This document shows positions 14,576 to 30,941 of a stretch of 45,688 nucleotides of DNA, piece after piece (position 1 is the stretch's first letter; every line of letters starts with the position of its first letter). This DNA is from Rhodocyclaceae bacterium. GTDB taxonomy: Bacteria; Pseudomonadota; Gammaproteobacteria; Burkholderiales; Rhodocyclaceae. Below the pieces are notes generated by a model, which saw only the letters and a list, made by a program, of their open reading frames with translations, searched no databases and had not been told where the DNA came from. The position numbers and the translations under genes are program-made. The stretch is taken from the NCBI GenBank assembly GCA_018883265.1, contig VEQK01000013.1:1-45688 (forward strand). Reading direction: 5' to 3'.

Positions 14576-14609
14576 CTGTCATGAATTAGAAATCTCGGCA
14601 GGATAGGGT
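14576..14609 (+). promoter_or_regulatory. Candidate Pho-box promoter before the GNAT gene
   Basis: CTGTCAT (14576-14582), a perfect PhoB half-site, is followed by GAAT and a second half TAGAAAT (14587-14593). Ten bases later is a weak -10, TAGGGT (14604-14609). The 7-4-7-10-6 spacing equals that of the E. coli phoA promoter. Confidence 0.42.
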
Positions 14610-14638
14610 TGGTCTCTGTAAAAAGGGGTCAATACATC

Positions 14639-15109
14639 ATGTCGAACAGCAAAGGGATTGAAGTCGGCGTCCTAGACACCGGCGAACCTGAAAAAGTCAT
14701 TCAGTCGATCGAGTTATTACACGGTAGTTTCGCCGGTAGCGATCGCTATACTGTAGCCAGGCTTAGCGAAGAGCTGAAGCAATTAGATGTGCCGCTGTAT
14801 CGGCAATTTTTTATCGCAACTCTACGCACCAATAAAGAAGAGCGGGTCGTTGGTATTGGTGGCGTCAAGGCGGCTGACTGGGCATCTAATACGCACATTC
14901 TCTATCTGTCAGCTGTGCATCCCGAGTTCCGTAACCTTGGCATTGGTAAACGGCTTGTGAAAGACCGCGTTCATTGGATACGTTCCAATTTTAGCGGCGG
15001 TCGTGTGCTTGTATCAACACCAAAAATCGAACGGTTCAAACAATTCGGATTCCGTCAGGTGACTGAATCCTGCCATAAAGGTCGGGCCATCATGCTCATG
15101 GAGTACTAA
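14639..15109 (+). CDS. GNAT-family N-acetyltransferase
   Basis: The 156-aa protein has the acetyl-CoA loop HPEFRNLGIGKRL at about 96-108 and the usual GNAT strand order, ending in a hydrophobic IMLMEY strand. The substrate is unknown. ATG at 14639 is chosen because AAGGGG lies about 10 bases before it; an upstream TTG at 14609 falls on the predicted -10. It faces the phosphatidylserine decarboxylase gene tail to tail, with 5 bases between. A Pho-box-like promoter suggests it belongs to the phosphate-stress set. Confidence 0.8.
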   Translation: MSNSKGIEVGVLDTGEPEKVIQSIELLHGSFAGSDRYTVARLSEELKQLDVPLYRQFFIATLRTNKEERVVGIGGVKAADWASNTHILYLSAVHPEFRNLGIGKRLVKDRVHWIRSNFSGGRVLVSTPKIERFKQFGFRQVTESCHKGRAIMLMEY

Positions 15110-15114
15110 TCGAC

Positions 15115-16002
15115 TTAAATATCTAATGCATTCAGAGTCATGAGTGGCTCACCCATTCGGATTGGTTGCCCTTCACGGAGGCCTGCAGTAAAACGATAAC
15201 GCTCGGGAAAGAGCAGAATGATGGTTGATCCATGTTCGAACCAGCCGAGCTCATCCCCTTTGTTGTAATGAGCATCACACCCAATGACATTGGGTCCCTG
15301 ATAGCGGAGATTCAGTAGAACGTCGATAAAGTGCAGGCGAATGCTGGCAACGAGGATGGCGGCTACCGGGATCATGAGGAAGGACATCGGGTGCCCGGAG
15401 GTACCCAAAAACTCGGCTTCAATAACCGCGCGTTCATTTTTGCAGAATAGCGCCTCAATACGTTTGAGCGCGATGGGGTTTACATTCCAGGTGTCCCCCG
15501 TGATGTAGGTAACTTGCGAAATATGACAGTCGACCGGTGCGTGAAAGCGGTGATACATCCCTGCCGTAATCCGAATCGTGATGTAAGTACCGTTGATGAA
15601 TCTTGCAACAAGGTCTGGATCGGGAAGCAAATCGCGAATTGAATAGGGGAATCCTTTGGCCTGAAATACCTGCGTGTCACTGATCTTACCGTGGGCGCCG
15701 ACGATGCCGTCACAGGGGCTCGTCAGTACGGACGAATTCGGGTCAACCGGCCGGGCGCCAGCTTTGAGTTTACGTATGAAAGCGTCGTGCAAGGAATTGA
15801 AGTTAAGGTCTAGCGCATCCGAAAGATCAACCTTCGAGAAAAATCTCCAAAGCCTGATGGAAACTGATCGGATGAACGGGTTTCTGATCTTGCTGAAACG
15901 GCCCATGAAAAGTGTTGTCGCACGCCTCGGAATCCTGTTGGTCAATAGAAAATTCAGGTCTTCTTGCAGCAGAAATCGATCAAGGAGTAGGCGTAATTTC
16001 AT
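15115..16002 (-). CDS. psd: Phosphatidylserine decarboxylase proenzyme
   Basis: PSD converts phosphatidylserine to phosphatidylethanolamine at the inner membrane and self-cleaves to form a pyruvoyl group. The 295-aa protein shows LTSPCDGIVG (catalytic aspartate), YHRFHAPVD (catalytic histidine) and the processing site HGST with Ser259. The usual proteobacterial LGST is replaced by HGST, but glycine and serine at the cut site are kept. It lies in a lipid-remodelling block and diverges from the aminotransferase gene across 33 bases. It may be the only Psd or a second, condition-specific copy; the window cannot tell. Confidence 0.93.
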   Translation of the reverse strand: MKLRLLLDRFLLQEDLNFLLTNRIPRRATTLFMGRFSKIRNPFIRSVSIRLWRFFSKVDLSDALDLNFNSLHDAFIRKLKAGARPVDPNSSVLTSPCDGIVGAHGKISDTQVFQAKGFPYSIRDLLPDPDLVARFINGTYITIRITAGMYHRFHAPVDCHISQVTYITGDTWNVNPIALKRIEALFCKNERAVIEAEFLGTSGHPMSFLMIPVAAILVASIRLHFIDVLLNLRYQGPNVIGCDAHYNKGDELGWFEHGSTIILLFPERYRFTAGLREGQPIRMGEPLMTLNALDI

Positions 16003-16035
16003 GTGCTTGTAACGAGGATTGGATAGAAATGACGC

Positions 16036-17694
16036 ATGGAAAATCTATTTAACGAAACCATGCTCGGGTTGATGGCGGTGGCTGGTGCTATTGCGGCACT
16101 GCCCAAGTTCAGGTCACGATTGATGCTCTCGCGGGCAAAACACCGGTCATTAGCCGGTCATTCCCGGATGGCCAAGCGTATCGCACGATTAATACCGTTT
16201 TATGAATATGATGAGTCAGGGTTCTTTCGAGCAGATGACGCCCCGGACGAGATCGTTCAAAAGCGGGTCAAGAGTCTGGCCATGCTTTCAGACTTTTACG
16301 AAAGAAAATACCGGCGTTCTGCAGCATTAACACGGCAGGCAGCAGAAACGATCTCGGATCTAAAATTTACGGGTTCCTATCGTGTGCCCTATCAGTTCTC
16401 TCGGTATGTACGTTCACGACTTCCTTCGGGTTCGTTCCTGAATAGTTCTGCTGGAGTCCTTGTGACGGATCTGGATGGCAATTCCTACTATGATCTGGCC
16501 GGCTCTTATGGGGTCAATGTCTTCGGTTATGACTTCTATAAAGCCTGTATCGCCGAAGGAGCGCGCCGGGTCGAAAATCTCGGACCTGTACTGGGCTCCT
16601 ATCATCCGATCGTTTTGGATAACGCAGAAAAACTGAAGCAGATTTCCGGGCAGGATGAGGTGTCGTTCCATATGTCAGGGACCGAGGCCGTTATGCAGGC
16701 AGTACGTCTTGCGCGATATCACACTGGCAAAAAGAATCTGGTGAGATTCTGCGGGGCATACCATGGCTGGTGGGAGGATGTGCAGCCGGGTATAGGCAAT
16801 CCGATGCCCCCTGGCAAGACCTACACACTATCGGATATGTCGCTTAAAAGTCTGAAGGTTCTTGAAACGCGTTCTGATATTGCCTGCGTGCTAATTAACC
16901 CATTGCAAGCCTTACATCCGAACAAGGCGGCCCCGGGCGATAGCGCTTTAGTAGATAGTAGCCGGGCAGCGGGCTTTGATCGGGAGGCTTATACGCAGTG
17001 GCTCAAAGCATTGCGGGAGGTCTGCACGCGCCGGGGTATTGTGCTCATCATGGATGAAGTTTTTGTGGGATTTCGTCTGGCGCCGGGTGGTGCCCAGGAG
17101 TACTTTGACGTCAGAGCCGATATGGTGACCTACGGTAAAACACTGGGCGGTGGGTTGCCCGTTGGTGTTGTCTGTGGCCGTAATGACTTGATGCAACGAT
17201 TCCGCAAGGAATATCCGGCCGACATCTGCTTTGCACGTGGCACATTTAATGCTCATCCTTATGTCATGGGAGCCATGCAGGTATTTCTGGAGCAGATCAA
17301 AGAGTTCGATGTGCGGCTGCTCTACAACAATCTTGATGAGATCTGGAACGCTCGGGCAGAAGGGCTCAATCGGCAACTAGCGGCAGAAGGATTGCCGGCG
17401 CGCGTGGATAACCTATCTACAATCTGGACGGTCAGTTACACCGTGCCGTCGCGCTACAACTGGATGTTCCAGTATTACCTCAAGGCGGAAGGGCTACTGC
17501 TCAGTTGGGTCGGTACCGGCAGATTAATCTTCAGCCTGAATTACACGGATGCAGATTTTGCGGCAGTCAGTACTAAATTTGTTCAGGCAGCACGTAGAAT
17601 GGTCTTGGATGGCTGGTGGTGGGCTGATACCGAAATGACCAATAAGACCATCAAGCGTCGTATTCTCGGGGAGATGTGGCGAACACGATGGTAA
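16036..17694 (+). CDS. Class III PLP-dependent aminotransferase with N-terminal extension
   Basis: The 552-aa protein has an N-terminal extension of about 110 residues: a hydrophobic stretch (MLGLMAVAGAIAALP) then a basic segment. A class III aminotransferase or aminomutase domain follows. Visible are SGTEAVMQAVRLAR, AYHGWWED (242-249), D340-E341 in LIMDEVFVGFR and the PLP lysine K368 in TYGKTLGGGLPVGVV. The fold resembles glutamate-1-semialdehyde aminomutase, but the extension and context argue against haem synthesis. The hydrophobic start suggests membrane contact. Placed between psd, an Mpo1-like protein and Agt, it may act on a lipid headgroup or long-chain amino compound; the reaction is unknown. 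Confidence 0.85.
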   Translation: MENLFNETMLGLMAVAGAIAALPKFRSRLMLSRAKHRSLAGHSRMAKRIARLIPFYEYDESGFFRADDAPDEIVQKRVKSLAMLSDFYERKYRRSAALTRQAAETISDLKFTGSYRVPYQFSRYVRSRLPSGSFLNSSAGVLVTDLDGNSYYDLAGSYGVNVFGYDFYKACIAEGARRVENLGPVLGSYHPIVLDNAEKLKQISGQDEVSFHMSGTEAVMQAVRLARYHTGKKNLVRFCGAYHGWWEDVQPGIGNPMPPGKTYTLSDMSLKSLKVLETRSDIACVLINPLQALHPNKAAPGDSALVDSSRAAGFDREAYTQWLKALREVCTRRGIVLIMDEVFVGFRLAPGGAQEYFDVRADMVTYGKTLGGGLPVGVVCGRNDLMQRFRKEYPADICFARGTFNAHPYVMGAMQVFLEQIKEFDVRLLYNNLDEIWNARAEGLNRQLAAEGLPARVDNLSTIWTVSYTVPSRYNWMFQYYLKAEGLLLSWVGTGRLIFSLNYTDADFAAVSTKFVQAARRMVLDGWWWADTEMTNKTIKRRILGEMWRTRW

Positions 17695-17710
17695 TTAATG
17701 GCTGTGGCAC

Positions 17711-17743
17711 AAAAAGCCAGAAGCCCCGCATGTGGGGCTTCTG
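17711..17743 (-). terminator. Bidirectional-type hairpin between convergent genes
   Basis: CAGAAGCCCC (17718-17727) pairs perfectly with GGGGCTTCTG (17734-17743) over a 6-base loop. On the minus strand the stem is followed by a short T run (the A run at 17711-17715 on the plus strand), so it should end transcripts of the Mpo1-like gene. On the plus strand it has no T run, but may still block read-through from the aminotransferase gene. Confidence 0.75.
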
Positions 17744-17767
17744 CCTGCTAGGGATACGTGCTTTAGT

Positions 17768-18397
17768 TTAGACAGCAGTCTTTATCTTTTCCTCGTGAGC
17801 GACATGATCCATCGGGTCGATCAGTTGACCGCGCATCAGATAGAACGGAGCCTTATAGTACATTTTCAGATCGTGAATGGGATCGGTCAGAATCTTAGTC
17901 ATCCATACCAGACCTGTCTGTACATCACGAATAAAGAACAGGTGCATGGTGCGGAATATAAGGCCGCCTACTCCAACGGCAAGCCAGATCATGCCAACAT
18001 GATCGATCATGCCTTTAGTTGACGTCGCTGGCTCAAAGATGCCGAATAAACTTGGGCTGACTAGAAGTAGGAGCGGCGAGGCGAGCCAGATGGCGATCAG
18101 GATGATTTTTCGGTTCAGGTTGTAGCCCACCTTGATCGCCTCCTTATATTCATTTGTGGCGTGGTTCACCACGTCGTAACCCTGGGGTTCAAAGAAGAAA
18201 TGGCCTGATTGGCGGGTACCCATGGACCAGAGCCATCCAATGATGGCGGCAGTGGCAGGGTCTGAAAGTACTAGGCTATAAGCAACGAGAAAACCGACTG
18301 CACTCATGAAATGCAAGGTTTGGTTGATCCGGCTCTGGTGATAGTAGCGGTGGTCGTCCCAGCGCTGCTCGCGCAGCGTTGCGAAAAATGATTTCAT
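17768..18397 (-). CDS. Membrane protein with Mpo1/DUF962-like histidine motifs
   Basis: The 209-aa protein has about four hydrophobic segments. Conserved-looking histidines occur in DDHRYYHQSRINQTLHF (H16, H20, H29) and in TRQSGHFFFE (H66, E70). This arrangement resembles Mpo1/DUF962 proteins, where yeast Mpo1 is an Fe(II) dioxygenase in fatty-acid alpha-oxidation. The resemblance is a motif-level judgement. The ATG at 18397 starts at MKSFFATLREQRWDD; the 33 codons upstream look non-coding. It lies among lipid-remodelling genes, divergent from the glycosyltransferase, which fits a role on lipid or fatty-acyl substrates. Confidence 0.65.
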   Translation of the reverse strand: MKSFFATLREQRWDDHRYYHQSRINQTLHFMSAVGFLVAYSLVLSDPATAAIIGWLWSMGTRQSGHFFFEPQGYDVVNHATNEYKEAIKVGYNLNRKIILIAIWLASPLLLLVSPSLFGIFEPATSTKGMIDHVGMIWLAVGVGGLIFRTMHLFFIRDVQTGLVWMTKILTDPIHDLKMYYKAPFYLMRGQLIDPMDHVAHEEKIKTAV

Positions 18398-18475
18398 ATC
18401 GACTCCATAGGTGATTTGATCATCAAACCTTATGTGTCGATTGCTACCGCTTTGTGAATTATTAAAGAGGTTTTG

Positions 18476-18493
18476 ATGACAGATGGTCAGTAA
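18476..18493 (-). promoter_or_regulatory. Candidate Pho box before the Mpo1-like gene
   Basis: Read on the minus strand, TTACTGA, then CCAT, then CTGTCAT (a perfect half-site, 18476-18482 on the plus strand) gives 7-4-7 spacing. AATAAT, a good -10, follows about 12 bases later. The first half-site is poor. Confidence 0.33.
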
Positions 18494-18506
18494 CAAATCC
18501 TTAAAT

Positions 18507-18540
18507 TTTTCGTAGCAATTTCATTACGCTGCTGGATAAA
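18507..18540 (+). promoter_or_regulatory. Candidate Pho-box promoter before the glycosyltransferase
   Basis: TTTTCGT (18507-18513), AGCA and ATTTCAT (18518-18524) are followed after exactly 10 bases by GATAAA (18535-18540). The half-sites match the CTGTCAT consensus at 4 and 5 of 7 positions, so the support comes mainly from spacing and from the gene's expected role. Confidence 0.33.
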
Positions 18541-18568
18541 GATATTGCAAAACACCCAGACAAATATC

Positions 18569-19756
18569 ATGGACACTATCTTTATTGAACAACTGGCCTC
18601 GAAAAAGAAATCATTGAGACTTGCGGTCGTGACTGAGACGTACCCTCCTGAAGTCAACGGTGTTGCATTGTCACTTTCAAAATTTGTCGAGGGGTTGTCC
18701 GAGTTGAATCATGAGATTCAACTGGTACGGCCTCGACAACAGTCGGATAGCAGGTCTAGCCTGGATGATGGTGTCGAGAAATTCCTGACCACGGGTTTGC
18801 CAATTCCTAAATATTCGAACCTAAAAATGGGACTTCCGGCCAAGAAAAGACTTATTGGTCAGTGGACTACCCATCGACCTGATCTGGTGCATATCGTGAC
18901 GGAAGGACCGCTCGGTTGGTCTGCGCTGGAAGCGGCGCGCAAGCTTAAGATTCCGGTTAGCTCGGATTTTCGGACAAATTTTCATAGTTACAGCCAACAC
19001 TACGGAATTGGCTGGCTCAAGAAGCCGATTGTCGGCTATCTGAGAAAATTCCATAACATGACGGCGCTGACCACAGTGCCTACGGAGTTCATGCGGCGTG
19101 AGCTGAGCAGTATCGGATTTCGAAATGTGCGTGTGCTGTCACGCGGGGTGGATGCCAGTCTATTTTCGCCAGAAAATCGCTCTGAGGCGCTGCGTGAATC
19201 ATGGGGTTGTCAGCCCGATGATCTGGTGATGATCCATGTTGGTCGATTAGCCGCAGAGAAAAATCTGGATTTGCTGATCAAATCATATTGGGCACTGCGT
19301 GAACAGGATAGTCGTATACGCCTCGTGATGGTCGGAGATGGTCCTGAGCGGGATACGTTGACGGCTTTGCTCCCTGAAGTGATATTTACCGGGGTCAAGA
19401 CAGGGAGAGATTTGGCAGCTCATTACGCTTCTGCCGACCTATTCGTTTTTCCGAGCAAGACAGAGACATTTGGCAACGTCACGCTGGAAGCGATGGCCAG
19501 TGGGTTGCCGGTAGTCGCATTTGATTATGCAGCTGCGGCACAATATGTGACGCAGGAAAGTGGTCGTCTGGCACCAATCGAAAGCGGTCGTCAGTTCATA
19601 GAAAGTTGCACCCAGTTACAGTTCTTGTACCGCAATAACCGTACCGCTTTTGATCAGATGTGTTTCTCATCCCGGCAACGCGCCATGCAAGAGAGCTGGC
19701 CAATGGTGGTGCGCAGTTTTGAATCCATGCTCCTTGATGTGGCTGAGCAAGTCTGA
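18569..19756 (+). CDS. agt: GT4-family glycosyltransferase, Agt-like (diacylglycerol glycosyltransferase)
   Basis: The 395-aa GT-B enzyme starts with VVTETYPPEVNGVALSLSKF, the glycine-rich acceptor-side motif. Its donor side shows HVGRLAAEKNLDLLI, MVGDGPERD and the E-x7-E motif in ETFGNVTLEAMASGLPVV. This matches the GT4 enzymes that, under phosphate limitation, add glucose or glucuronate to diacylglycerol (Agt, partner of PlcP). PlcP, the enzyme that would supply diacylglycerol, lies 1.7 kb away in the same locus. ATG at 18569 is used; the frame extends to a TTG at 18545. The sugar added cannot be predicted. Confidence 0.82.
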   Translation: MDTIFIEQLASKKKSLRLAVVTETYPPEVNGVALSLSKFVEGLSELNHEIQLVRPRQQSDSRSSLDDGVEKFLTTGLPIPKYSNLKMGLPAKKRLIGQWTTHRPDLVHIVTEGPLGWSALEAARKLKIPVSSDFRTNFHSYSQHYGIGWLKKPIVGYLRKFHNMTALTTVPTEFMRRELSSIGFRNVRVLSRGVDASLFSPENRSEALRESWGCQPDDLVMIHVGRLAAEKNLDLLIKSYWALREQDSRIRLVMVGDGPERDTLTALLPEVIFTGVKTGRDLAAHYASADLFVFPSKTETFGNVTLEAMASGLPVVAFDYAAAAQYVTQESGRLAPIESGRQFIESCTQLQFLYRNNRTAFDQMCFSSRQRAMQESWPMVVRSFESMLLDVAEQV

Positions 19757-20016: not shown

Positions 20017-20826
20017 TCACTGTGTCTTCCCGAGAAAATGACGGGCATAACGCGGGTGCATATCCGAAATTCGGAGCAGAGTAAGAAAGTCGGCTGTGTT
20101 GAAATTGGGGTCCCACGCCGGGGCGCCACAAATTTTTGCGCCAAGTCTCAAGTACCCTTTCACGAGTGCTGGTGGTTCGACATCCAGGCACTGGTTAAGA
20201 CTGTCTACCGGCAATGCAAGCCGCGGAAATGAGCGATATTCAATAGAGGCCAGATGGGATTTGCTCAGCTGGTGGTGCAGGCTTGCGGCGTAATGACCGC
20301 CGTCAGCCATGGAAACGCTGGCACACCCTAACATTGAGTCATAGCCGCCTCGGATCATGTAGCGGCCTAGTCCACCCCAGAGCGCCATGATGACACTGCC
20401 AGTGCGGTAGTCCTGATGTACACAAGATCGGCCAAGTTCGATCATTTTCGGACGCAAGTGAGCAAGCCTGGTCAGATCAAACTCGGTTTCCGAGTACAGG
20501 CAGCCAAGCTTGCTTGCATTGTCCGGAGTCAGAACACGATAAGTACCGACAACCCGGAGGGTCTCTTCGTCTCGGACCAGCAGGTGGTCGCACCAGTTAT
20601 CAAACATGTCCTGATCCAGACCGGTTTTTACCGATGGGAGCGCAGCGCCCATTTCTTCGGCAAAGACCTTGAATCGGAGTCGTTGAGCTTCCTCTACCTC
20701 GTCCTGATGTCTTGCCCAGGATACAGTTAACGCGGATTGATGAACTTGCCGAGGAATAATTCCAGCAATCTCTACCGTGCCAAGGCTACTGATTTGCTCG
20801 TCAAGCGATGGTTTTTTGTCGGGCAT
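20017..20826 (-). CDS. olsB: L-ornithine N(alpha)-acyltransferase
   Basis: OlsB transfers a 3-hydroxyacyl group from acyl carrier protein to ornithine, the first step of phosphate-free ornithine lipids. The 269-aa protein has the GNAT-like family motifs: RLRFKVFAEEMGA, the D-x-x-D-x-x-C segment TGLDQDMFDNWCDHLLV, ELGRSCVHQDYRTG, and a late VKGYLRLGAKICGAPAWDPNFNTADF. ATG at 20826 is preferred to the one at 20832 because AAGGA sits 5 bases before it. The second enzyme, OlsA, is not in this window. A three-half-site Pho box lies upstream. Confidence 0.88.
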   Translation of the reverse strand: MPDKKPSLDEQISSLGTVEIAGIIPRQVHQSALTVSWARHQDEVEEAQRLRFKVFAEEMGAALPSVKTGLDQDMFDNWCDHLLVRDEETLRVVGTYRVLTPDNASKLGCLYSETEFDLTRLAHLRPKMIELGRSCVHQDYRTGSVIMALWGGLGRYMIRGGYDSMLGCASVSMADGGHYAASLHHQLSKSHLASIEYRSFPRLALPVDSLNQCLDVEPPALVKGYLRLGAKICGAPAWDPNFNTADFLTLLRISDMHPRYARHFLGKTQ

Positions 20827-20890
20827 GGTCATCCTTTCAACACCAAAAGTCCTGAATGATTTGACTCTAGAACTGCAAGATGACGAAGGC

Positions 20891-21452: not shown

Positions 21453-22259
21453 CTAGGACGAAGCTTTGGCAAGTTCTTCGTGCAGACTAAGCAGATTGAG
21501 CGGTGCCTCGACGCGTCTATTCCAGTGAACGATTTCAAGGTTCCCGTCGAAATCCTCAGTGAGTGCTGTGAGGCTTTCTACCCAGTCGCCATCGTTGCAG
21601 TAGAGTATTCCGTTGATTTCGCGTATTTCGGCCTTATGAATGTGTCCGCAAACGACACCATCACAGTCACGACGTTTGGCTTCTTCAGTCATCACGTGCT
21701 CGAATGCCGAAATGAAGTTAACAGCGTTCTTGACCTGATGCTTGAGGTATTGGGAGAGTGACCAGTAGGGAAGTCCCAGTTTCGTTCTGATGGCATTGAA
21801 CCAGCGGTTCAGGTAGAGAATCAGACTATATGCGCCATCACCCACATAGGCCAGCCAACGCGCATGCTGCATGACGCCATCAAACATATCGCCATGTGTT
21901 ACCCAGAGTCGTCTGCCGTTAGCCATCGTGTGAATGGCATCCTCACGTACCTCGATCTCGCCAAATTCGAGCCCGATAAACTGGCGAACGCTTTCGTCAT
22001 GGTTACCGGGTATGAAGATTACGCGGGTGCCCTTGCGGCCCTTCCGCAATATCTTCTGAACAACATCATTATGCGTCTGAGGCCAGTACCAGCCCTTTTT
22101 TAGGTGCCACCCGTCCAGAATGTCGCCCACAAGATAGAGTGTTTGGGATTCGTTGGTCTTTAAGAAATCGAGGAGGTAGTCTGCTTGGCAACCACGGGTG
22201 CCCAGGTGAACATCGGAAATCCAAATGGTTCGGTAATGTTTTGCGTTTTGGCTAGGCAC
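21453..22259 (-). CDS. plcP: PlcP-type phospholipase C (metallophosphoesterase)
   Basis: PlcP, made under phosphate limitation, cleaves phospholipid headgroups to give diacylglycerol and a phospho-alcohol. The 268-aa protein has the full calcineurin-like metal site: D16 and H18 in ISDVHLG, D46 in GDILDG, N86-H87 in GNHDE, H122 in THGD, and H206/H208 in CGHIH. Long stretches (DGWHLKKGWYWPQ, LPYWSLSQYLKHQVKNAV, YCNDGDWVESLTAL) match PlcP more closely than LpxH. The nearby agt supports this call. It lies 59 bases after corA and 38 before the sixA-like gene in one minus-strand run. Confidence 0.88.
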   Translation of the reverse strand: MPSQNAKHYRTIWISDVHLGTRGCQADYLLDFLKTNESQTLYLVGDILDGWHLKKGWYWPQTHNDVVQKILRKGRKGTRVIFIPGNHDESVRQFIGLEFGEIEVREDAIHTMANGRRLWVTHGDMFDGVMQHARWLAYVGDGAYSLILYLNRWFNAIRTKLGLPYWSLSQYLKHQVKNAVNFISAFEHVMTEEAKRRDCDGVVCGHIHKAEIREINGILYCNDGDWVESLTALTEDFDGNLEIVHWNRRVEAPLNLLSLHEELAKASS

Positions 22260-24376: not shown

Positions 24377-24433
24377 CCCTTTCGTAGTCTTGGATTCGTG
24401 CCAGCATGTGCTGGAACCTCAAGGGAGTTAGAG

Positions 24434-25483
24434 ATGAACGCTTCAATCAACAAAGCGCTGAAGGGTCTGCTGATTTCGGCTGGTCTTCTGGCAGGCGTGG
24501 CTAATGCAGCACAAATTACCGGTGCGGGTGCGACTTTCCCAGCACCAATGTATGCTAAGTGGGCAGAAGCCTACAAGGCACAAACGACGATTGCACTGAA
24601 CTATCAGGCGATCGGTTCGGGCGGTGGCGTTAAGCAAATTCTGGCCAAGACCGTTGATTTCGGTGCCAGCGATGATCCGACGTCGGCAGATATCCTGGAG
24701 AAGAATGGTCTGGCTCAATTTCCGGCCGTTATCGGTGGTGTTGTGCCCGTCATCAATGTCTCAGGTATTGCACCGGGCCAGCTCAAACTGAACAACGATG
24801 TGCTGTCGGATATTTTCCGCGCCAAGATCACCAAGTGGAACGACTCGGCGATTGCATCGGTGAACCCGGGTATTAAACTGCCGGATACGGCCATTACACT
24901 GGTTTACCGTTCGGATTCGTCGGGTACAACAGCTGTCTTTACCGACTTCCTTGCGCAAGTGTCCCCGCCTTTCAAGGGTGTGGTCGGCGCGGGTAAAACC
25001 GTGAACTGGCCGGCCGGTGTGGGTGGTAAGGGTAACGCGGGTGTTGCCGCAAACGTCACCAAAATCGACGGTGCGATTGGCTATGTGGAATACGCCTATG
25101 CCAAGCAAAACAAGATGACGCACGTGTCGCTGATCAACCGTGACGGCAAGGCCGTTCAGCCGAACGAAGCGAGCTTCAAGGCTGCGGCAGCCAAGGCCAA
25201 CTGGACGGGTACACCGAACTTTGCGGTGAACCTGAACAACCAGCCGGGTGCCGGATCGTGGCCGATCACTTCAGCAACTTTCATCTTGATGTACAAGAAG
25301 GCCGAGAAGCCGGAGCAGAGCGGTGAAGTGCTCAAGTTCTTCAACTGGGCGCTGACCAAGGGTCAGAAGATGGCCACGGATCTGGACTACGTTCCCCTGC
25401 CGGATAACGCTGTCAACGCTATCGTTAAAAGCTGGGCTGAAATCAAGAGCCCGGATGGTAAGGCTGTTTTTGTCACCAAGTAA
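24434..25483 (+). CDS. pstS: Phosphate ABC transporter, periplasmic phosphate-binding protein
   Basis: PstS captures phosphate in the periplasm and delivers it to PstCA. The 349-aa protein has a signal peptide ending at VANAAQ (about residue 25). Phosphate-contact segments follow: GAGATFPAP, GSGGGVKQI, VDFGASDDP and YRSDSSGTTAVF. ATG at 24434 is chosen because AAGGGAG lies just before it; the 12 codons upstream of it are leader. It opens the pstSCAB operon behind a Pho box, with a hairpin before pstC that probably lets pstS be made in excess. Confidence 0.97.
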   Translation: MNASINKALKGLLISAGLLAGVANAAQITGAGATFPAPMYAKWAEAYKAQTTIALNYQAIGSGGGVKQILAKTVDFGASDDPTSADILEKNGLAQFPAVIGGVVPVINVSGIAPGQLKLNNDVLSDIFRAKITKWNDSAIASVNPGIKLPDTAITLVYRSDSSGTTAVFTDFLAQVSPPFKGVVGAGKTVNWPAGVGGKGNAGVAANVTKIDGAIGYVEYAYAKQNKMTHVSLINRDGKAVQPNEASFKAAAAKANWTGTPNFAVNLNNQPGAGSWPITSATFILMYKKAEKPEQSGEVLKFFNWALTKGQKMATDLDYVPLPDNAVNAIVKSWAEIKSPDGKAVFVTK

Positions 25484-25491
25484 ATCTGGGT

Positions 25492-25520
25492 TCATGCCGG
25501 CCCCTCATGGGTCGGCATGA
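25492..25520 (+). promoter_or_regulatory. pstS-pstC intergenic hairpin
   Basis: TCATGCCGGCCC (25492-25503) pairs with GGGTCGGCATGA (25509-25520) over a 5-base loop, with one G-T pair and no T run. Such a hairpin just after pstS is expected to protect the pstS message or reduce read-through, giving more binding protein than permease. Confidence 0.65.
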
Positions 25521-25550
25521 CACGAAGAGTCGATACTCCGGGAGTTTTGA

Positions 25551-26522
25551 GTGATTGATACCAATGAGACCGTGGCTCAAGCCATGGAGCGACAGGCAGC
25601 AAAGTCTGCAAAGTTTCTGCGTCAGGACCGGCTGTTTGCCGGAGTGACCTTAAGCTTTGCTTCACTGGTGCTGCTGACGCTGTTCGGGATCCTGGTGTCC
25701 CTGGTTGTTCAGGCCTGGCCGGCATTCCAGGAGTTTGGTTTCGGCTTCTTCTACAGCACTACCTGGAGTCCGACAGATGGTAACTTTGGTGCCGGTATTG
25801 GTATCTGGGGAACGCTGGTTACCTCTCTGATTGCACTATTGGTCGGTGTACCCATTAGTTTTGGGATCGCCATGTTTCTGACGGAATCCTGCCCGGTATG
25901 GTTGCGTCGCCCACTGGGTACGGCGATTGAGCTTCTGGCGGGCGTTCCGTCAATTATCTATGGTTTTTGGGGACTCTTCATCTTTGCACCGCTGGTTCAG
26001 GACTACATTCAACCCTGGATGATCCGCTGGATCGGCGAGCCTTTCTTTGGCGGTCCGCCGCTGGGATTGGGTATCTTTACCGCAGGTCTCGTGCTGGCGC
26101 TGATGGTGATACCGTTTATCGCCTCGGTGATGCGAGATGTATTCGAAACGGTGCCTGCCGTGTTGAAGGAGTCGGCCTACGGTATCGGTTGCACGCGTTG
26201 GGAAGTCGTCAAGAATATTGTGTTGCCCTATACCCGTGTCGGCGTTATTGGCGGCATCATGCTTGGTCTCGGCCGGGCCCTCGGCGAAACGATGGCCGTG
26301 ACCTTCGTGATCGGTAACGCTAACCGCTTTTCTCTGGATCTGTTTGATCCGGGTAATTCAATTGCTTCGACGCTGGCCAACGAATTTGCCGAAGCTGATC
26401 CGACCATGCATATTCCAGCACTCTTCGGGCTCGGTCTGATTCTCTTCATCATTACCTTTGTGGTGCTCTCGATTTCCGAGTGGCTCATCAAACAGGGTGA
26501 GAAGAAAGCGGGGGTCAAATAA
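25551..26522 (+). CDS. pstC: Phosphate ABC transporter permease
   Basis: PstC is one half of the inner-membrane phosphate channel. The 323-aa protein has about six membrane segments and the ATPase-contact loop region around ALKESAYGIGCTRWEVVKNIVLP (EAA-type motif, here VLKESAYGIG). It starts at GTG 25551, supported by GGGAG about 6 bases upstream. Its stop shares bases with the pstA start (TAATG), indicating coupled translation. Confidence 0.95.
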   Translation: MIDTNETVAQAMERQAAKSAKFLRQDRLFAGVTLSFASLVLLTLFGILVSLVVQAWPAFQEFGFGFFYSTTWSPTDGNFGAGIGIWGTLVTSLIALLVGVPISFGIAMFLTESCPVWLRRPLGTAIELLAGVPSIIYGFWGLFIFAPLVQDYIQPWMIRWIGEPFFGGPPLGLGIFTAGLVLALMVIPFIASVMRDVFETVPAVLKESAYGIGCTRWEVVKNIVLPYTRVGVIGGIMLGLGRALGETMAVTFVIGNANRFSLDLFDPGNSIASTLANEFAEADPTMHIPALFGLGLILFIITFVVLSISEWLIKQGEKKAGVK

Positions 26523-27367
26523 TGGACGCACGCTATAAGCGCCGCAAATTAACGAATAGCCTGAGCACCCTGCTGTCCGGCGTAGCTGTCGGCATTGGTC
26601 TGCTTGGCCTGATCTGGATTCTGGCAACCCTGTTTATCAAGGGGGTACCGGCCATGAACTGGGCGTTCTTTACCGAATCGACCCCAGCTCCGGGATCAGA
26701 AGGTGGCGGGATGATCAATGCCATTGTCGGTAGCCTGCTCATCGTTGGTTTGACCACGCTGGTATCAACTCCGATTGGCATTCTGGCCGGTATTTACCTA
26801 GCCGAGTTTGGTGACCGTTCTAAAATTGCCGCCGTGACTCGCTTCGTGACTGACATCATGCTCTCGGCGCCTTCCATCGTGATTGGTCTCTTTGTGTACG
26901 CATTGTTTGTTGCGACTACCAAGCATTTTTCGGGTTGGTCCGGCTCGATTGCGCTATCGCTCATCGCTGTTCCGGTTGTAGTTCGTACGACCGAAAATAT
27001 GCTGAAGCTTGTTCCGGGCAGCCTGCGTGAAGCAGCCTTTGCGCTGGGTATGCCGCGCTGGCGTGTCAGCCTTGATGTATGCCTGCGTGCCGTGCAGGGT
27101 GGTGTTATTACCGGGATTCTGCTGGCTGTGGCCCGCATTACGGGTGAGACGGCGCCGCTACTCTTTACCGCACTGAATAACCAGTTTTTCAGTTGGAATA
27201 TGGATCAGCCGATGGCCAATCTACCGGTCACCATTTTCAATTTCGCCATGAGCCCCTATGAAAACTGGCAGGAGCTTGCATGGGGTGCATCCGCACTGAT
27301 CGCCATGCTGGTTCTGCTACTCAACATTGTGGCTCGTGTTGCTTTCCGTGAAAAATCACATTCCTAA
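26522..27367 (+). CDS. pstA: Phosphate ABC transporter permease
   Basis: PstA is the second channel subunit. The 281-aa protein has about six hydrophobic segments, the conserved opening FFTESTPAPGSEGGGM and the EAA-type loop SLREAAFALGMPRWRVSLDV. It overlaps pstC by one base and is followed by pstB after 9 bases, all in the standard order. Confidence 0.95.
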   Translation: MDARYKRRKLTNSLSTLLSGVAVGIGLLGLIWILATLFIKGVPAMNWAFFTESTPAPGSEGGGMINAIVGSLLIVGLTTLVSTPIGILAGIYLAEFGDRSKIAAVTRFVTDIMLSAPSIVIGLFVYALFVATTKHFSGWSGSIALSLIAVPVVVRTTENMLKLVPGSLREAAFALGMPRWRVSLDVCLRAVQGGVITGILLAVARITGETAPLLFTALNNQFFSWNMDQPMANLPVTIFNFAMSPYENWQELAWGASALIAMLVLLLNIVARVAFREKSHS

Positions 27368-27376
27368 GAGGTCGTC

Positions 27377-28159
27377 ATGTCTGAATTTCTATCTGATCAG
27401 GGTGTTAATGTAGCCCTCAAGGTTCGTGATCTGGATTTCTACTACGGTACCTTCAAGGGACTCAAGTCGGTATCCATGGATATCGCAGAGAAGAAGGTCA
27501 CCGCTTTTATCGGCCCTTCGGGTTGCGGTAAGTCGACCCTGTTACGTACCTTCAACCGGATGTATGACCTCTACCCGGGCCAGCGTGCCGAAGGTCAAAT
27601 CCTGTTTCATGGTCAGAACACCCTGGACAAAGGTGTTGACCTGAACCTGCTACGTGCCCGGATCGGTATGGTCTTCCAGAAACCAACCCCGTTCCCCATG
27701 TCGATATACGACAACATCGCTTTTGGTGTTCGTCTCTATGAAGATCTGTCTAAGGCCGACATGGATAATCGTGTTCAGTGGGCCCTCGAACAGGCCGCGC
27801 TGTGGACCGAGGTCAAGGACAAGTTGCATCAGAGTGGTCTTTCGCTGTCAGGCGGCCAGCAACAGCGTTTGTGTATCGCCCGCGGTGTTGCGGTCAAGCC
27901 GGACATCCTGCTCCTCGACGAGCCAACATCGGCGCTAGACCCGATTTCGACGGCCAAGATCGAAGAACTGGTTTTCGAACTGAAAAACTCCTACACGATC
28001 GCGATCGTCACTCACAATATGCAACAGGCCGCCCGTGTTTCAGACTTTACGGCTTACATGTATCTGGGTGAACTGATTGAATTTGGTGTGACGGATGAGT
28101 TGTTTGTAAAGCCGAAACGCAAGGAAACCGAGGACTACATTACAGGCCGATTTGGTTAA
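27377..28159 (+). CDS. pstB: Phosphate ABC transporter ATP-binding protein
   Basis: PstB powers phosphate import. The 260-aa protein has Walker [10 protein letters not shown], a Q-loop in [15 protein letters not shown], the signature LSGGQQQR, Walker [14 protein letters not shown] and the switch histidine in [14 protein letters not shown]. The [13 protein letters not shown] segment is typical of PstB. It is the last gene of the operon before the palindromic terminator. Confidence 0.97.
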
Positions 28160-28180
28160 TGATAGGTGATAAGGTAGGCA

Positions 28181-28217
28181 GTAAAAAAACGCCGACCTTT
28201 GGTCGGCGTTTTTTTAC
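28181..28217. terminator. Perfect bidirectional terminator between pstB and phoR
   Basis: The arms at 28181-28197 and 28201-28217 are perfect 17-bp complements around TTT. Each strand shows a GC stem followed by seven T residues, so it ends transcription from pstSCAB and from phoU-phoB-phoR alike. Confidence 0.95.
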
Positions 28218-28232
28218 TGGGATTGATTTGAT

Positions 28233-29468
28233 TTAGTCAGTTATTCGGGAAATGCGTTGTCTCGGGAAACAGGCCGAAAAAGTGCTGCCCCCACCGGGTT
28301 GGCTATTGATCGTCAGGTGTCCCTGATGTTTGGTCAGGGCATGCTTGACAATCGCTAGGCCAAGCCCAGTCCCGCCAGTATCACGGGAACGTCCCTGATC
28401 AACCCGATAGAATCTTTCAGTAAGGCGAGGCAGGTGAGTCGGCGAGATACCAATCCCAGTGTCTCTGACATAAAGACAACCGCCATTGGGGGTATCTTCC
28501 CAGCCTATGGCAACTTGACCACCGTGGGGGGTGTAGTTCACGGCATTGTTGGCCAGATTGCCAATAATACTGCGCATGGCAGAAGCTGACCCCCGAATGC
28601 GAAGATCGGCTGGAATGTCACAGCTAATCTGGTGCCGCTCCGCTGATAGACTTTCGGTCGCCAGCAAAACGTCGTGAGCAAGGCTGCCGAGATTGATGTC
28701 AGTTTCATCAGCGAACGCAGTGCTGGCCTCTAATGATGAAAGCGTCAGTAAATCTTGGACTAATCGATTCATCTGCTGCGCCTGGGAATGCGCAAGGTCG
28801 AGGTAACGTTGACGCTTCTCTTCGCTGAGTATCGTGTGATGCGACTGGAGTGTTTCAATGAAACCACTGATGACCGTTAGCGGTGTCTTGAGTTCGTGCG
28901 ACACATTGGCCACAAAGTCTCTACGGACGTTTTCAAGTTTTTCAAGCTGCGTTAGATCGCGAATGGTCATTAGTGATCGTTCATGACCGTAATCAATCAC
29001 GTTCACCATATAGCAGGCCTCCGATCTCCGCGTGGGGTGGTACATCAAAGGCTCTGAGAAATCGGCATTCTGCAGGTAGGATACGAATTCGGGTTCGCGC
29101 ACCATATGTTCGATGGGTTTTCCGGAATCCTTGTTCTGAGACAGGAACATTAGAGTCTCAGCCAGCTGGTTCATCCAAAGAATACGCCGCTGGGTATCCA
29201 TGAAGATAACGCCGTCAGGTAGGGCCTCCATGGCACTTCGGAATTGCTCCAAGGCAGTCGCGAGTTCGGTTTTTTCACGCATCCGGAACTTGAGCCGACT
29301 GTTCATGCGGGACACGAACTCTCCCCAAACACCATCGGCATCCGGTAATGGGGCATCGAGAGGGCCTGAAATCCAGTCAAGCATCAAACGCAAATAGCGC
29401 CTGTGAACATACAGCCTAACTGCCAGTAAGAGTACTGCAATCGAGAGCAGCACCTCAAGAAAAGACAT
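28233..29468 (-). CDS. phoR: Phosphate regulon sensor histidine kinase
   Basis: PhoR phosphorylates PhoB when phosphate is short, under control of PstSCAB and PhoU. The 411-aa protein has a single N-terminal membrane segment (about 1-20) where E. coli PhoR has two. A PAS domain (MEALPDGVIFMD onward, about 78-170) follows. The H-box is FVANVSHELKTPLT with His191, then the ATPase N, G1 and G2 boxes (NLANNAVNYTP, DTGIGIS, GGTGLGLAIVK). It follows phoB by 54 bases and is the last gene of phoU-phoB-phoR. Confidence 0.95.
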   Translation of the reverse strand: MSFLEVLLSIAVLLLAVRLYVHRRYLRLMLDWISGPLDAPLPDADGVWGEFVSRMNSRLKFRMREKTELATALEQFRSAMEALPDGVIFMDTQRRILWMNQLAETLMFLSQNKDSGKPIEHMVREPEFVSYLQNADFSEPLMYHPTRRSEACYMVNVIDYGHERSLMTIRDLTQLEKLENVRRDFVANVSHELKTPLTVISGFIETLQSHHTILSEEKRQRYLDLAHSQAQQMNRLVQDLLTLSSLEASTAFADETDINLGSLAHDVLLATESLSAERHQISCDIPADLRIRGSASAMRSIIGNLANNAVNYTPHGGQVAIGWEDTPNGGCLYVRDTGIGISPTHLPRLTERFYRVDQGRSRDTGGTGLGLAIVKHALTKHQGHLTINSQPGGGSTFSACFPRQRISRITD

Positions 29469-29522
29469 GGAAACCTCCTGGTTACCAATGCTACCACTGG
29501 AAACCAGATCAGAGTTCGATTG

Positions 29523-30215
29523 CTACTCGGTATTGATTGAGAACCGATAACCACTGCCGCGTACAGTCTGGATCAGACTGTCATGGCCAGTCACTTCCAG
29601 TACGGACCGCAGGCGCCGGATATGGACATCAACCGTGCGTTCTTCAACAAAGACATGGTCCCCCCAGACCTTGTCCAGCAGCTGTGAACGGCTATGAACC
29701 CGTTCCGGATGCGTCATGAAGAAGTGAAGCAGACGAAACTCGGTAGGTCCGATGTTAACGGCAGCACCGGCAGCGGTGACACGATGTGTGACCGGATCAA
29801 GCACTAGCCCGTTGACGTCAACCTTGTCTTCCGTAAGCTGAGGTTTTCTACGCCGTAATACGGCCTTGATTCGAGCAATCAGTTCCCTTGGCGAAAACGG
29901 TTTGACCATATAGTCATCAGCGCCGATTTCAAGGCCGGTGACCCGATCCTGCTCATCCGTTCGAGCGGTTAGCATGATGATGGGAACATCCTTTGTGCGT
30001 TCCACCATGCGGATGCGCTGGGCAAACTGGGGGCCGGAACGACCCGGCAACATCCAGTCCAGCAGGATCAGATCAGGCAAGTTGTGTACGATCAGCTGCT
30101 CAGCCTCTTCAGCGGAACCCGCTTCGATTACACGGTGAGCGGAAGCTTCAAGGTTGACTATGAGCAGCTCACGTATCGCCGGGTCATCCTCGACGATGAG
30201 TATGGTTGCAGCCAT
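29523..30215 (-). CDS. phoB: Phosphate regulon response regulator
   Basis: PhoB activates Pho-box promoters when phosphorylated. The 230-aa OmpR-family protein has the acidic pocket ED10-D11, phospho-acceptor Asp53 in LLDWMLPG, a conserved ADDYMVKPFSPREL segment and a winged-helix DNA-binding domain ending in RGSGYRFS. The recognition helix region (VFVEERTVDVHIRRLR) is very close to PhoB of other proteobacteria. It lies 9 bases after phoU. The Pho boxes noted in this window are its expected targets. Confidence 0.96.
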   Translation of the reverse strand: MAATILIVEDDPAIRELLIVNLEASAHRVIEAGSAEEAEQLIVHNLPDLILLDWMLPGRSGPQFAQRIRMVERTKDVPIIMLTARTDEQDRVTGLEIGADDYMVKPFSPRELIARIKAVLRRRKPQLTEDKVDVNGLVLDPVTHRVTAAGAAVNIGPTEFRLLHFFMTHPERVHSRSQLLDKVWGDHVFVEERTVDVHIRRLRSVLEVTGHDSLIQTVRGSGYRFSINTE

Positions 30216-30224
30216 TATGCTAGG

Positions 30225-30941
30225 TTATCTTGTTTCTGCGCTGTCGCTTGCGAGCTTGGTGCGGATATCGTTCACATCGATATGGCGCACATTCATGCCA
30301 GACGCAATGTAGATGACGTTTTCGGCGACTGCACGTGCATGGTCGGCTACCCGTTCGATGGCTTTGGCCATACCCATGATCTCTAGTGCTTGCGAGATAG
30401 TGCGAGGGTCTTCCATCATGAAAGTGATCAGTTGACGCGTAATGCTGCGATATTCCGAGTCCACCAGGTCGTCAGCTTGCAGGACATCTGTAGCCGACAT
30501 GCTGTCTGCGCGAGAAAATGCATCCAAGGCGCGCCGAAGCATATCCAGCGCATCTTCCGACATGTGTCGTAGCTCTACTGTTGGCGTGAAGAGTGGGTGT
30601 TTTTCATGCAGCGATCGAGCAATTCGGGCGATTTTCAGGGCTTTGTTTCCGGCCTTTTCAAGCTCGAGACCAGTTTTCTGGACGCCGATAACAACACGAA
30701 GATCGATAGCCGTTGGCTGTCGCTTAGCAATCAATTGATTGCAGACCATATCAAGTTGTAACTCTGCTTCATCTAGGCGTACATCACCTTGCTCCACCGC
30801 AGAGAGAAGATTGATGTCCGCGCCATACAATCCTTGCATCGCCATGCGCATTTGCTGTTCGACGATGCCGCCCATCAAAAGAACGCGGGATTTCAGGTCG
30901 TCCAGCTCAAGATCAAATTGTTTGACGGTATGCTCTGCCAT
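30225..30941 (-). CDS. phoU: Phosphate signalling protein PhoU
   Basis: PhoU links Pst transport to PhoR and holds the regulon off when phosphate is plentiful. The 238-aa all-helical protein has the two PhoU repeats with metal-binding acidic motifs (DEAELQLDMVCNQL in the first, DLVDSEYRSITRQL in the second) and ends near AENVIYIASG. Here phoU is upstream of phoB rather than after pstB, so the regulators form their own transcript facing pstSCAB. Confidence 0.95.
   Translation of the reverse strand: MAEHTVKQFDLELDDLKSRVLLMGGIVEQQMRMAMQGLYGADINLLSAVEQGDVRLDEAELQLDMVCNQLIAKRQPTAIDLRVVIGVQKTGLELEKAGNKALKIARIARSLHEKHPLFTPTVELRHMSEDALDMLRRALDAFSRADSMSATDVLQADDLVDSEYRSITRQLITFMMEDPRTISQALEIMGMAKAIERVADHARAVAENVIYIASGMNVRHIDVNDIRTKLASDSAETR

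Follow-up and report, generated by a model that had tools for sequence, protein, structure and literature searches.

In much of the soil, freshwater and ocean, growth is limited by phosphate, and the bacterial responses known so far, i.e. glycolipids, betaine lipids and ornithine lipids, depend on a small number of genes. The synthesis of ornithine lipids (by OlsB/OlsA or OlsF) yields an aminolipid that is tied to phosphate limitation and, to our knowledge, is carried out by acyltransferases only, without an aminotransferase or a decarboxylase. The PlcP-Agt, betaine-lipid and ornithine-lipid routes have already been described, as set out in parts of PMC4796936, PMC8528852 and PMC9239053. Here, we have analysed a stretch of 45,688 nt from a Rhodocyclaceae bacterium (assembly GCA_018883265.1, contig VEQK01000013.1, positions 1-45,688, forward strand; hereafter, the window), where the genes of a phosphatidylserine decarboxylase (PSD) paralogue, a class III aminotransferase (AT) and an Mpo1-like membrane protein form a conserved cassette, usually joined by a glycosyltransferase of family 4 (GT4). 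According to those parts of the same three papers that deal with it, the PlcP-Agt renovation resembles the system that we propose for this cassette: Pho-type control, a phosphoesterase combined with a lipid glycosyltransferase, and phospholipid replaced by a phosphorus-free lipid; moreover, PlcP-like and Agt-like genes are located close to the cassette, or at least in its genome. The trio itself, however, is not part of that renovation: neither “decarboxylase” nor “aminotransferase” appears anywhere in the main text of PMC9239053 or PMC8528852, and PMC4796936 contains neither “phosphatidylserine decarboxylase” nor “aminotransferase”.

The PSD gene (15115..16002, minus strand) encodes a proenzyme of 295 aa and diverges from the AT gene (16036..17694, plus strand), which encodes a pyridoxal phosphate (PLP)-dependent enzyme of 552 aa, the two starts being separated by a gap of 33 bases (16003..16035). 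The gene of the Mpo1-like protein (17768..18397, minus strand), a putative iron-dependent oxygenase of 209 aa, converges with the AT gene and is separated by a divergent intergenic region (18398..18568) from the gene of the Agt-like, lipid-type GT4 glycosyltransferase (18569..19756, plus strand). An earlier reading, made from the letters of this DNA alone (the sequence-only reading), had grouped the trio with the gene of a GNAT acetyltransferase (14609..15109, plus strand; Acetyltransf_1 in Pfam), and all four reading frames are present where it had placed them.

The linkage of the three genes has been examined in two panels of genomes, with Fisher p values that ignore the relatedness of the genomes. 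The first panel comprises 61 genomes, i.e. the window's own and 60 relatives (4 from the genus, 32 from the family and 24 from the order): full-length AT orthologues (52-100% identity, at least 626 bits; next best among the matches listed, 158 bits) occur in six of them, the Mpo1-like protein occurs in the identical six, and so does the cassette-type PSD (43-100% identity, at least 228 bits; next best, 126 bits), the three genes being adjacent in all six carriers. In the second panel, which comprises 398 Pseudomonadota genomes, the Mpo1-like protein (threshold E 0.001) is found in 25 genomes, AT (threshold E 1e-60) in 25, and both in 24 (Fisher p 3e-36); in the two genomes with only one of the genes (G187 and G321), the contig, of 4,431 and 10,628 bases, respectively, stops short of the expected place of the partner gene. 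We have further compared 80 loci from genomes with organism names, the best 80 of 572 confirmed relatives, to which all counts out of 80 refer; genes were placed in the loci by tblastn, and a neighbour was counted when located within 5.5 kb of the Mpo1-like gene. Counts of loci, here and below, are not independent, as some loci are near-copies (L042 and L048, whose contigs are equally long, and L100 and L101, which resemble each other) and genera may recur between the 80 loci and others. AT is such a neighbour in 79/80 loci, at a median gap of 95 bases (4.2 kb in L111), and PSD in 73/80; the AT miss (L068) and six of the PSD misses (L068, L086, L102, L119, L123 and L125) fall at contig ends, and in L111 PSD is located farther along. 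All 80 loci agree with the trio as far as their DNA reaches, and PSD, AT and the Mpo1-like protein are a conserved cassette, with a linkage far beyond chance; the co-occurrence in the two panels rules out a chance neighbourhood. The four-gene block of the sequence-only reading stands for these three genes, which do recur together elsewhere, the absence of co-occurrence that it had named as the outcome against it having not appeared; it does not stand for the GNAT gene, which adjoins the cassette only in one locus of the same genus (L041, 52%) and in 0/80 loci, and is ruled out as a member on these grounds.

The carriers include Bradyrhizobium, Methylobacterium, Nitrobacter, Hydrogenophaga, Dechloromonas and Curvibacter, among others. 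The cassette can also be plasmid-borne: the trio and a methyltransferase are located on a 385 kb plasmid of Sphingomonas parapaucimobilis (L182:8105-12197), where they are annotated as archaetidylserine decarboxylase, class III aminotransferase, hypothetical protein and methyltransferase. Three metagenome bins with cassette genes (L061, L069 and L071) are labelled Bordetella parapertussis; the style of their names, that of sample labels, makes it probable that these are environmental bins with a wrong label.

AT matches Aminotran_3 (PF00202, E 1.1e-37), and both its PLP lysine, K368, and D340 are kept in 55/55 aligned orthologues. The closest relative of its core among solved structures, both by sequence (E 8.3e-46) and by fold (rank 1), is the aminotransferase (AMT) domain of mycosubtilin synthase (PDB IDs 6kfm and 6kfu); AMT, however, is located inside a polyketide synthase/nonribosomal peptide synthetase (PKS/NRPS), whereas AT is a stand-alone frame whose N-terminal extension comprises about 130 residues. 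In a tree of 42 sequences, the 15 cassette ATs form one clade (support 100/100) on the PKS side, away from the HemL of the same genome (L003). Three PKS/NRPS-type ATs are located beside this clade (support 91/89 and 95/94, long branches): condensation, acyltransferase and carrier domains are present in two of them (L011 and L013), and a carrier domain in the third (L012). The tree is to be read with the caveat that the stem of the cassette clade is long (4.1) and that the program warned of long branches; a further protein that scores below the HemL cut-offs (L014) likewise falls on the side of the PKS and cassette ATs, with a long branch.

AT shares its fold family with HemL, and it could be supposed that it is a HemL-like enzyme, or another aminotransferase of a soluble substrate, with unrelated neighbours: HemL models are its best NCBIfam matches, and HemL structures rank directly after those of AMT in the fold comparison. 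AT nevertheless scores 179.4 bits against a cut-off of 398 and 174.9 bits against a cut-off of 527.3, missing both curated cut-offs by more than half, whereas the HemL of the same genome passes both models (670 and 593 bits); three HemL proteins of the tree, among them that of the window's genome, were tested and pass these models, and the HemL proteins are placed elsewhere in the tree. Judged by its sequence, AT is not HemL, and the clustering with HemL that the sequence-only reading had put forward as evidence against itself has not been seen; as AT is also linked near-perfectly with the Mpo1-like protein and PSD across families, we consider a soluble-substrate enzyme among unrelated neighbours to be extremely improbable. 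The N-terminal extension differs from its earlier description as a hydrophobic segment of 110 residues: its hydrophobic part is confined to residues 4-22 (mean hydropathy 1.63), hydropathy does not exceed 0.06 in residues 36-130, and what remains of the extension is partly conserved and predicted to form helices. The anchoring of AT to the membrane by this short hydrophobic helix is plausible.

PSD matches PS_Dcarbxylase (PF02666) at E 3.7e-59, with 200.2 bits against a cut-off of 22, and TIGR00163 with 164.9 bits against a cut-off of 111.75; it also matches the solved PSD 7cnw (E 3.7e-26), which we take to be that of E. coli. Residues D98, H151, H154 and G258-S259-T260 are kept in 33/33 aligned orthologues, and correspond to the Asp/His/Ser self-cleavage and pyruvoyl site of the E. 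coli enzyme. The identification as PSD that had been proposed earlier has been upheld by both models and the intact catalytic residues, and the enzyme may act on phosphatidylserine. The genome holds another, short PSD on a different contig (C11) and, therefore, the cassette PSD is a paralogue; all six cassette genomes hold another PSD, which is short except in G009, where it belongs to the long type, and the two non-carrier genomes included in this search hold one PSD each. These observations bear on a more ordinary account, where PSD, together with a PmtA-type methyltransferase where one occurs, makes phosphatidylethanolamine (PE) and phosphatidylcholine (PC) under phosphate stress, and AT and the Mpo1-like protein serve a linked ordinary step, such as the supply of fatty acids or of an amino donor. 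The TIGR00163 match and the intact catalytic residues suit this account, as does a family (f63) in three genomes of which the PmtA-type gene of the cassette is the sole match at E 1e-12; however, with another PSD in all six cassette genomes checked, the supply of PE is already covered, extra PE would run counter to the PlcP neighbourhood that is described below, and the strict linkage of AT with the Mpo1-like protein would be left unexplained. We find this account distinctly unlikely.

According to the portion of PMC9624242 that concerns it, yeast Mpo1 is a dioxygenase that depends on iron and has 2-hydroxy fatty acids as its substrates. The Mpo1-like protein of the window matches the corresponding family, PF06127, at E 0.0041, with 17.6 bits, i.e. 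below the cut-off of 24; all 58/58 aligned orthologues match it at E 1 or better (best, 1.4e-5), and one of them (in G050) passes the cut-off at 24.6 bits. Residues H20, H29 and H66 are kept in 58/58 aligned orthologues, and hhalign places H20, H29, H66 and E70 on H31, H40, H78 and E82 of canonical PF06127 members (E 9e-5, probability 59.5), so that the H-x8-H and GHF-x-FE motifs align; the Mpo1-like histidines that had been noticed in the sequence are confirmed in this way, with a weak Pfam match of the window protein itself. The cassette protein differs from yeast Mpo1 and PF06127 in its weak score, its greater length and its strict linkage to AT and PSD. Its predicted structure (mean pLDDT, i.e. 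predicted local distance difference test, 90.7) is nearly all helical, and its comparison with the PDB has given no useful fold match (best Foldseek E 0.34; in a second comparison, Z 4.5 over 73 residues). Bradyrhizobium has a second Mpo1-like paralogue outside any cassette (L166:9523-10170 and L183:6001-6576), which occurs on 8 plasmids as well; 7/9 plasmid matches are typed as conjugative, and one is labelled Blr4581 protein.

PKS/NRPS aminotransferase domains act on large, carrier-bound acyl substrates, and the AMT domain of mycosubtilin synthase makes a beta-amino acyl chain. By analogy, the trio could act on an acyl chain: the Mpo1-like protein would shorten or oxidise a hydroxylated chain, AT would aminate it and PSD would remove the carboxyl group, giving an amino-acyl or a long-chain-amine lipid. 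The position of AT nearest to PKS/NRPS domains by sequence, tree and fold agrees with such a route, as does the activity of yeast Mpo1 on 2-hydroxy fatty acids, for which the relevant portion of PMC9624242 is again the source. The PmtA-type methyltransferase and the PlcP, UDP-glucose dehydrogenase (UGDH) and Ols neighbours, however, point to a headgroup, and neither a ketosynthase nor an acyl carrier protein was found in 10 representatives of neighbour clusters and 10 proteins that were scanned, which cover a part of the recurrent neighbours; an acyl-chain route is, in our view, unlikely.

The GT4 gene at 18569, which the sequence-only reading had named agt and set as the boundary of the block, has turned out to be the usual fourth member of the cassette. 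A homologue is a neighbour of the Mpo1-like gene in 73/80 loci, in 71 of them at an identity of at least 42% to the cassette glycosyltransferase of either the window or Bradyrhizobium; the seven remaining loci consist of three short contigs or contig ends (L064, L068 and L069), one partial gene at a contig end (L082), two loci where the gene is located farther away (L111 and L125) and one with none within the flank examined (L095). The window protein is recognised by GT4 models of Pfam, and its best NCBIfam match is N-acetylglucosaminyl-phosphatidylglycerol synthase, at 151 bits against a cut-off of 480. In one genome (G202), the PlcP gene has a glycosyltransferase of its own that is 58% identical to the Bradyrhizobium cassette enzyme, and the Bradyrhizobium type is therefore kin to the Agt type; the window enzyme is more distant from it, at 34% identity between the types.

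In a variant of the cassette, the genes all share one strand: AT comes first, followed by a protein of about 880-960 aa with a C-terminal GT4 part, by PSD and by the Mpo1-like protein (family f57, and G421, which belongs to the window's class). The fused protein has been seen directly in 8 genomes (L154-L158, L164, L167 and L178; e.g. L156:9610-12483 and L154:7515-10172), in which about 480 aa before the GT4 part make up a conserved N-terminal domain. The N-terminal part contains HxH, NHNN, HP and DDH motifs of a metal-binding type, kept in 5/5 aligned proteins, which we take, as a guess, to be PHP-like; a Pfam search at E 5 found no PHP domain in 4/4 fused proteins, and a PDB search with one N-terminal part gave no match. 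In two loci, OlsF is the next gene beside this cassette (L154, NF052615 at 841 bits against a cut-off of 620; L155, 87% identical).

Genes of phosphorus-free lipid metabolism accompany the cassette without belonging to its core. In the window, these are the gene of an OlsB-like acyltransferase (20017..20832, minus strand; PF13444 above its cut-off, OlsB models below theirs) and that of a metallophosphoesterase (21453..22259, minus strand; Metallophos, with LpxH models far below their cut-off), which we take to be PlcP in view of its gene context. PlcP-like genes (threshold E 1e-30) occur in 149/398 genomes of the broad panel, and their distribution follows the form of the cassette: among the 26 genomes in which one or more cassette genes are present, they are found in 18/18 without the fused glycosyltransferase and in 0/8 with it, compared with 131/372 genomes without cassette genes (Fisher p 1.5e-8 for the 18 versus the 372). 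Nine of the 18 non-fused genomes were read gene by gene, and the other 9 were judged by an AT-Mpo1 gap of less than 400 bases. In the flanks examined, a PlcP-like gene is present in 15/80 loci, an OlsB-like gene in 4/80, and a UGDH-type gene in 8/80 and also in L157, L165, L178 and L180.

A PmtA-type methyltransferase is located within the same 5.5 kb in 29/80 loci, 28 of which are alphaproteobacterial by their records, the other (L103) being recorded as “bacterium” only. The PDB entry that it matches best is a phosphatidylethanolamine N-methyltransferase, the bacterial PmtA 8ys9 (E 4.9e-43; described in a section of PMC12139422); it differs from PmtA in reaching 151 bits against a cut-off of 390 for NF045882. 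Among 22 cassette genomes, 14 contain a PmtA-type match at E 1e-12, which is located at the cassette in 8 of them; the window genome has no PmtA-type gene at that threshold.

The intergenic regions of the cassette have been scored against a Pho-box consensus of 14 scored positions, with a threshold of 11/14. Across 97 loci, sites that reach this threshold number 2.44 per kb in the two cassette promoter regions (the PSD/AT gap and the region before the Mpo1-like gene), against 0.10 per kb elsewhere, a 24-fold difference for which the rest of the same loci serves as the control; at a threshold of 12/14, the densities are 0.85 and 0.027 per kb, and perfect sites number none in the cassette promoters and one elsewhere. 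Compared with shuffles that preserve base composition only, sites of at least 11/14 are found in 34/74 PSD/AT gaps (shuffles 1.1%), in 28/80 regions upstream of the Mpo1-like gene (0.75%) and in 4/15 regions upstream of PlcP (2.7%). The site upstream of the Mpo1-like gene is present in 5/21 Bradyrhizobium loci and in 27/71 others. The mean score of the convergent AT-Mpo1 regions, which serve as a further control, is not above that of their shuffles (8.17 vs 8.05). Taken together with the PlcP pattern and the pst/pho genes of the window, the enriched Pho-box-like sites of the family support a link of the cassette to phosphate. The earlier proposal of an aminolipid made under phosphate limitation is thus supported for its phosphate part, and the aminolipid product is what the enzyme families suggest. 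Inside the AT coding sequence, at window position 16144, there is a 12/14 match, probably due to chance.

On balance, and with somewhat better than even confidence, we favour the view that the trio and its usual GT4 partner are a Pho-controlled cassette that makes a phosphorus-sparing membrane aminolipid when phosphate is scarce. In its favour are the fixed partnership of the genes, the intact catalytic residues, the enriched Pho-box-like sites of the family, the association with genes of the PlcP, OlsB/OlsF and UGDH types and, in some loci, of the PmtA type, and also the nearness of AT to PKS/NRPS aminotransferase domains, whose substrates are large and carrier-bound. In the pathway that we propose, PlcP, or the additional N-terminal domain of the fused glycosyltransferase, would free diacylglycerol from phospholipid, and GT4 would add a sugar, perhaps glucuronate. 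The Mpo1-like protein, with iron and oxygen, might then turn a hydroxy-acid group on the lipid into a carbonyl by oxidation, which is a guess; its kinship to yeast Mpo1, whose iron-dependent dioxygenase activity towards 2-hydroxy fatty acids is described in part of PMC9624242, is the reason why it could supply this carbonyl. AT would convert the carbonyl into an amino acid group, at a position that is likewise a guess; the pyruvoyl enzyme PSD would decarboxylate this group to an ethanolamine-like amine, and the PmtA-type enzyme, where present, would N-methylate the amine.

Pyruvoyl decarboxylases require an alpha-amino acid as their substrate; aminotransferases are able to produce such an acid from a keto acid, and enzymes of the PmtA type add methyl groups to ethanolamine-like amines. 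From this family chemistry, which the three last steps fit, we infer the order of AT, PSD and methyltransferase. The exact order of all six steps (PlcP, GT4, Mpo1-like protein, AT, PSD, methyltransferase) is unlikely to be right throughout. Tentatively, the product may be an undescribed, phosphorus-free stand-in for PE (for PC, where the PmtA-type enzyme is present): the headgroup of a diacylglycerol or glycolipid would be oxidised, transaminated to a serine-like group, decarboxylated and N-methylated, all under PhoB, with the domain of the fused glycosyltransferase replacing PlcP; we regard this version as possible rather than probable.

Several observations weigh against a Pho-controlled aminolipid cassette. 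PSD and PmtA normally act on phospholipids, which is odd for a phosphorus-free product, and the Mpo1-like protein combines a weak family match with the lack of a useful match among solved folds. No segment above the hydropathy threshold of 1.6 is present in 29/55 AT orthologues. The PlcP contrast rests on few lineages: 7/8 fused-glycosyltransferase genomes belong to one family, some being 78-90% complete, and the 18 non-fused genomes come from 8 genera, with 9 of them from one genus. The Pho-box signal of the PSD/AT gap is dominated by Bradyrhizobium (19/19 measurable loci, against 14/62 others), the convergent AT-Mpo1 control itself exceeds its shuffles at 11/14 (5/66, 7.6%, against 1.2%), and the best sites of the window are weak: 10/14 before the Mpo1-like gene (18465-18482, minus strand) and 9/14 in the PSD/AT gap, where relatives often have Pho-box-like sites. 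Lastly, five further loci with the trio (L043, L045, L159, L163 and L179) have no detected homologue of the glycosyltransferase, which therefore may not be essential.

Our search of the open-access literature, which left most subscription papers and all preprints outside its range, has found no published description of the cassette, in line with the sequence-only reading, which could match it to no described pathway. The cassette probably belongs to phosphate-controlled lipid remodelling, with a chemistry that is undescribed. A strictly linked cassette, often with Pho-box-like promoters, suggests an overlooked membrane lipid; uncharacterised aminolipids are listed for marine isolates in a figure legend of PMC4796936, and the cassette may help to assign some unidentified aminolipids. 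With cultured, named carrier strains and single genes, the question is directly testable.

Outside the cassette, the window contains what appears to be a phosphate island: a pstSCAB-like transporter (plus strand) and a PhoR-like kinase, a PhoB-like regulator and PhoU (minus strand) are located at 24398..30941, with gene names taken from their Pfam domains and their order, and are accompanied by PPK2 (8866) and a CHAD protein (13011).

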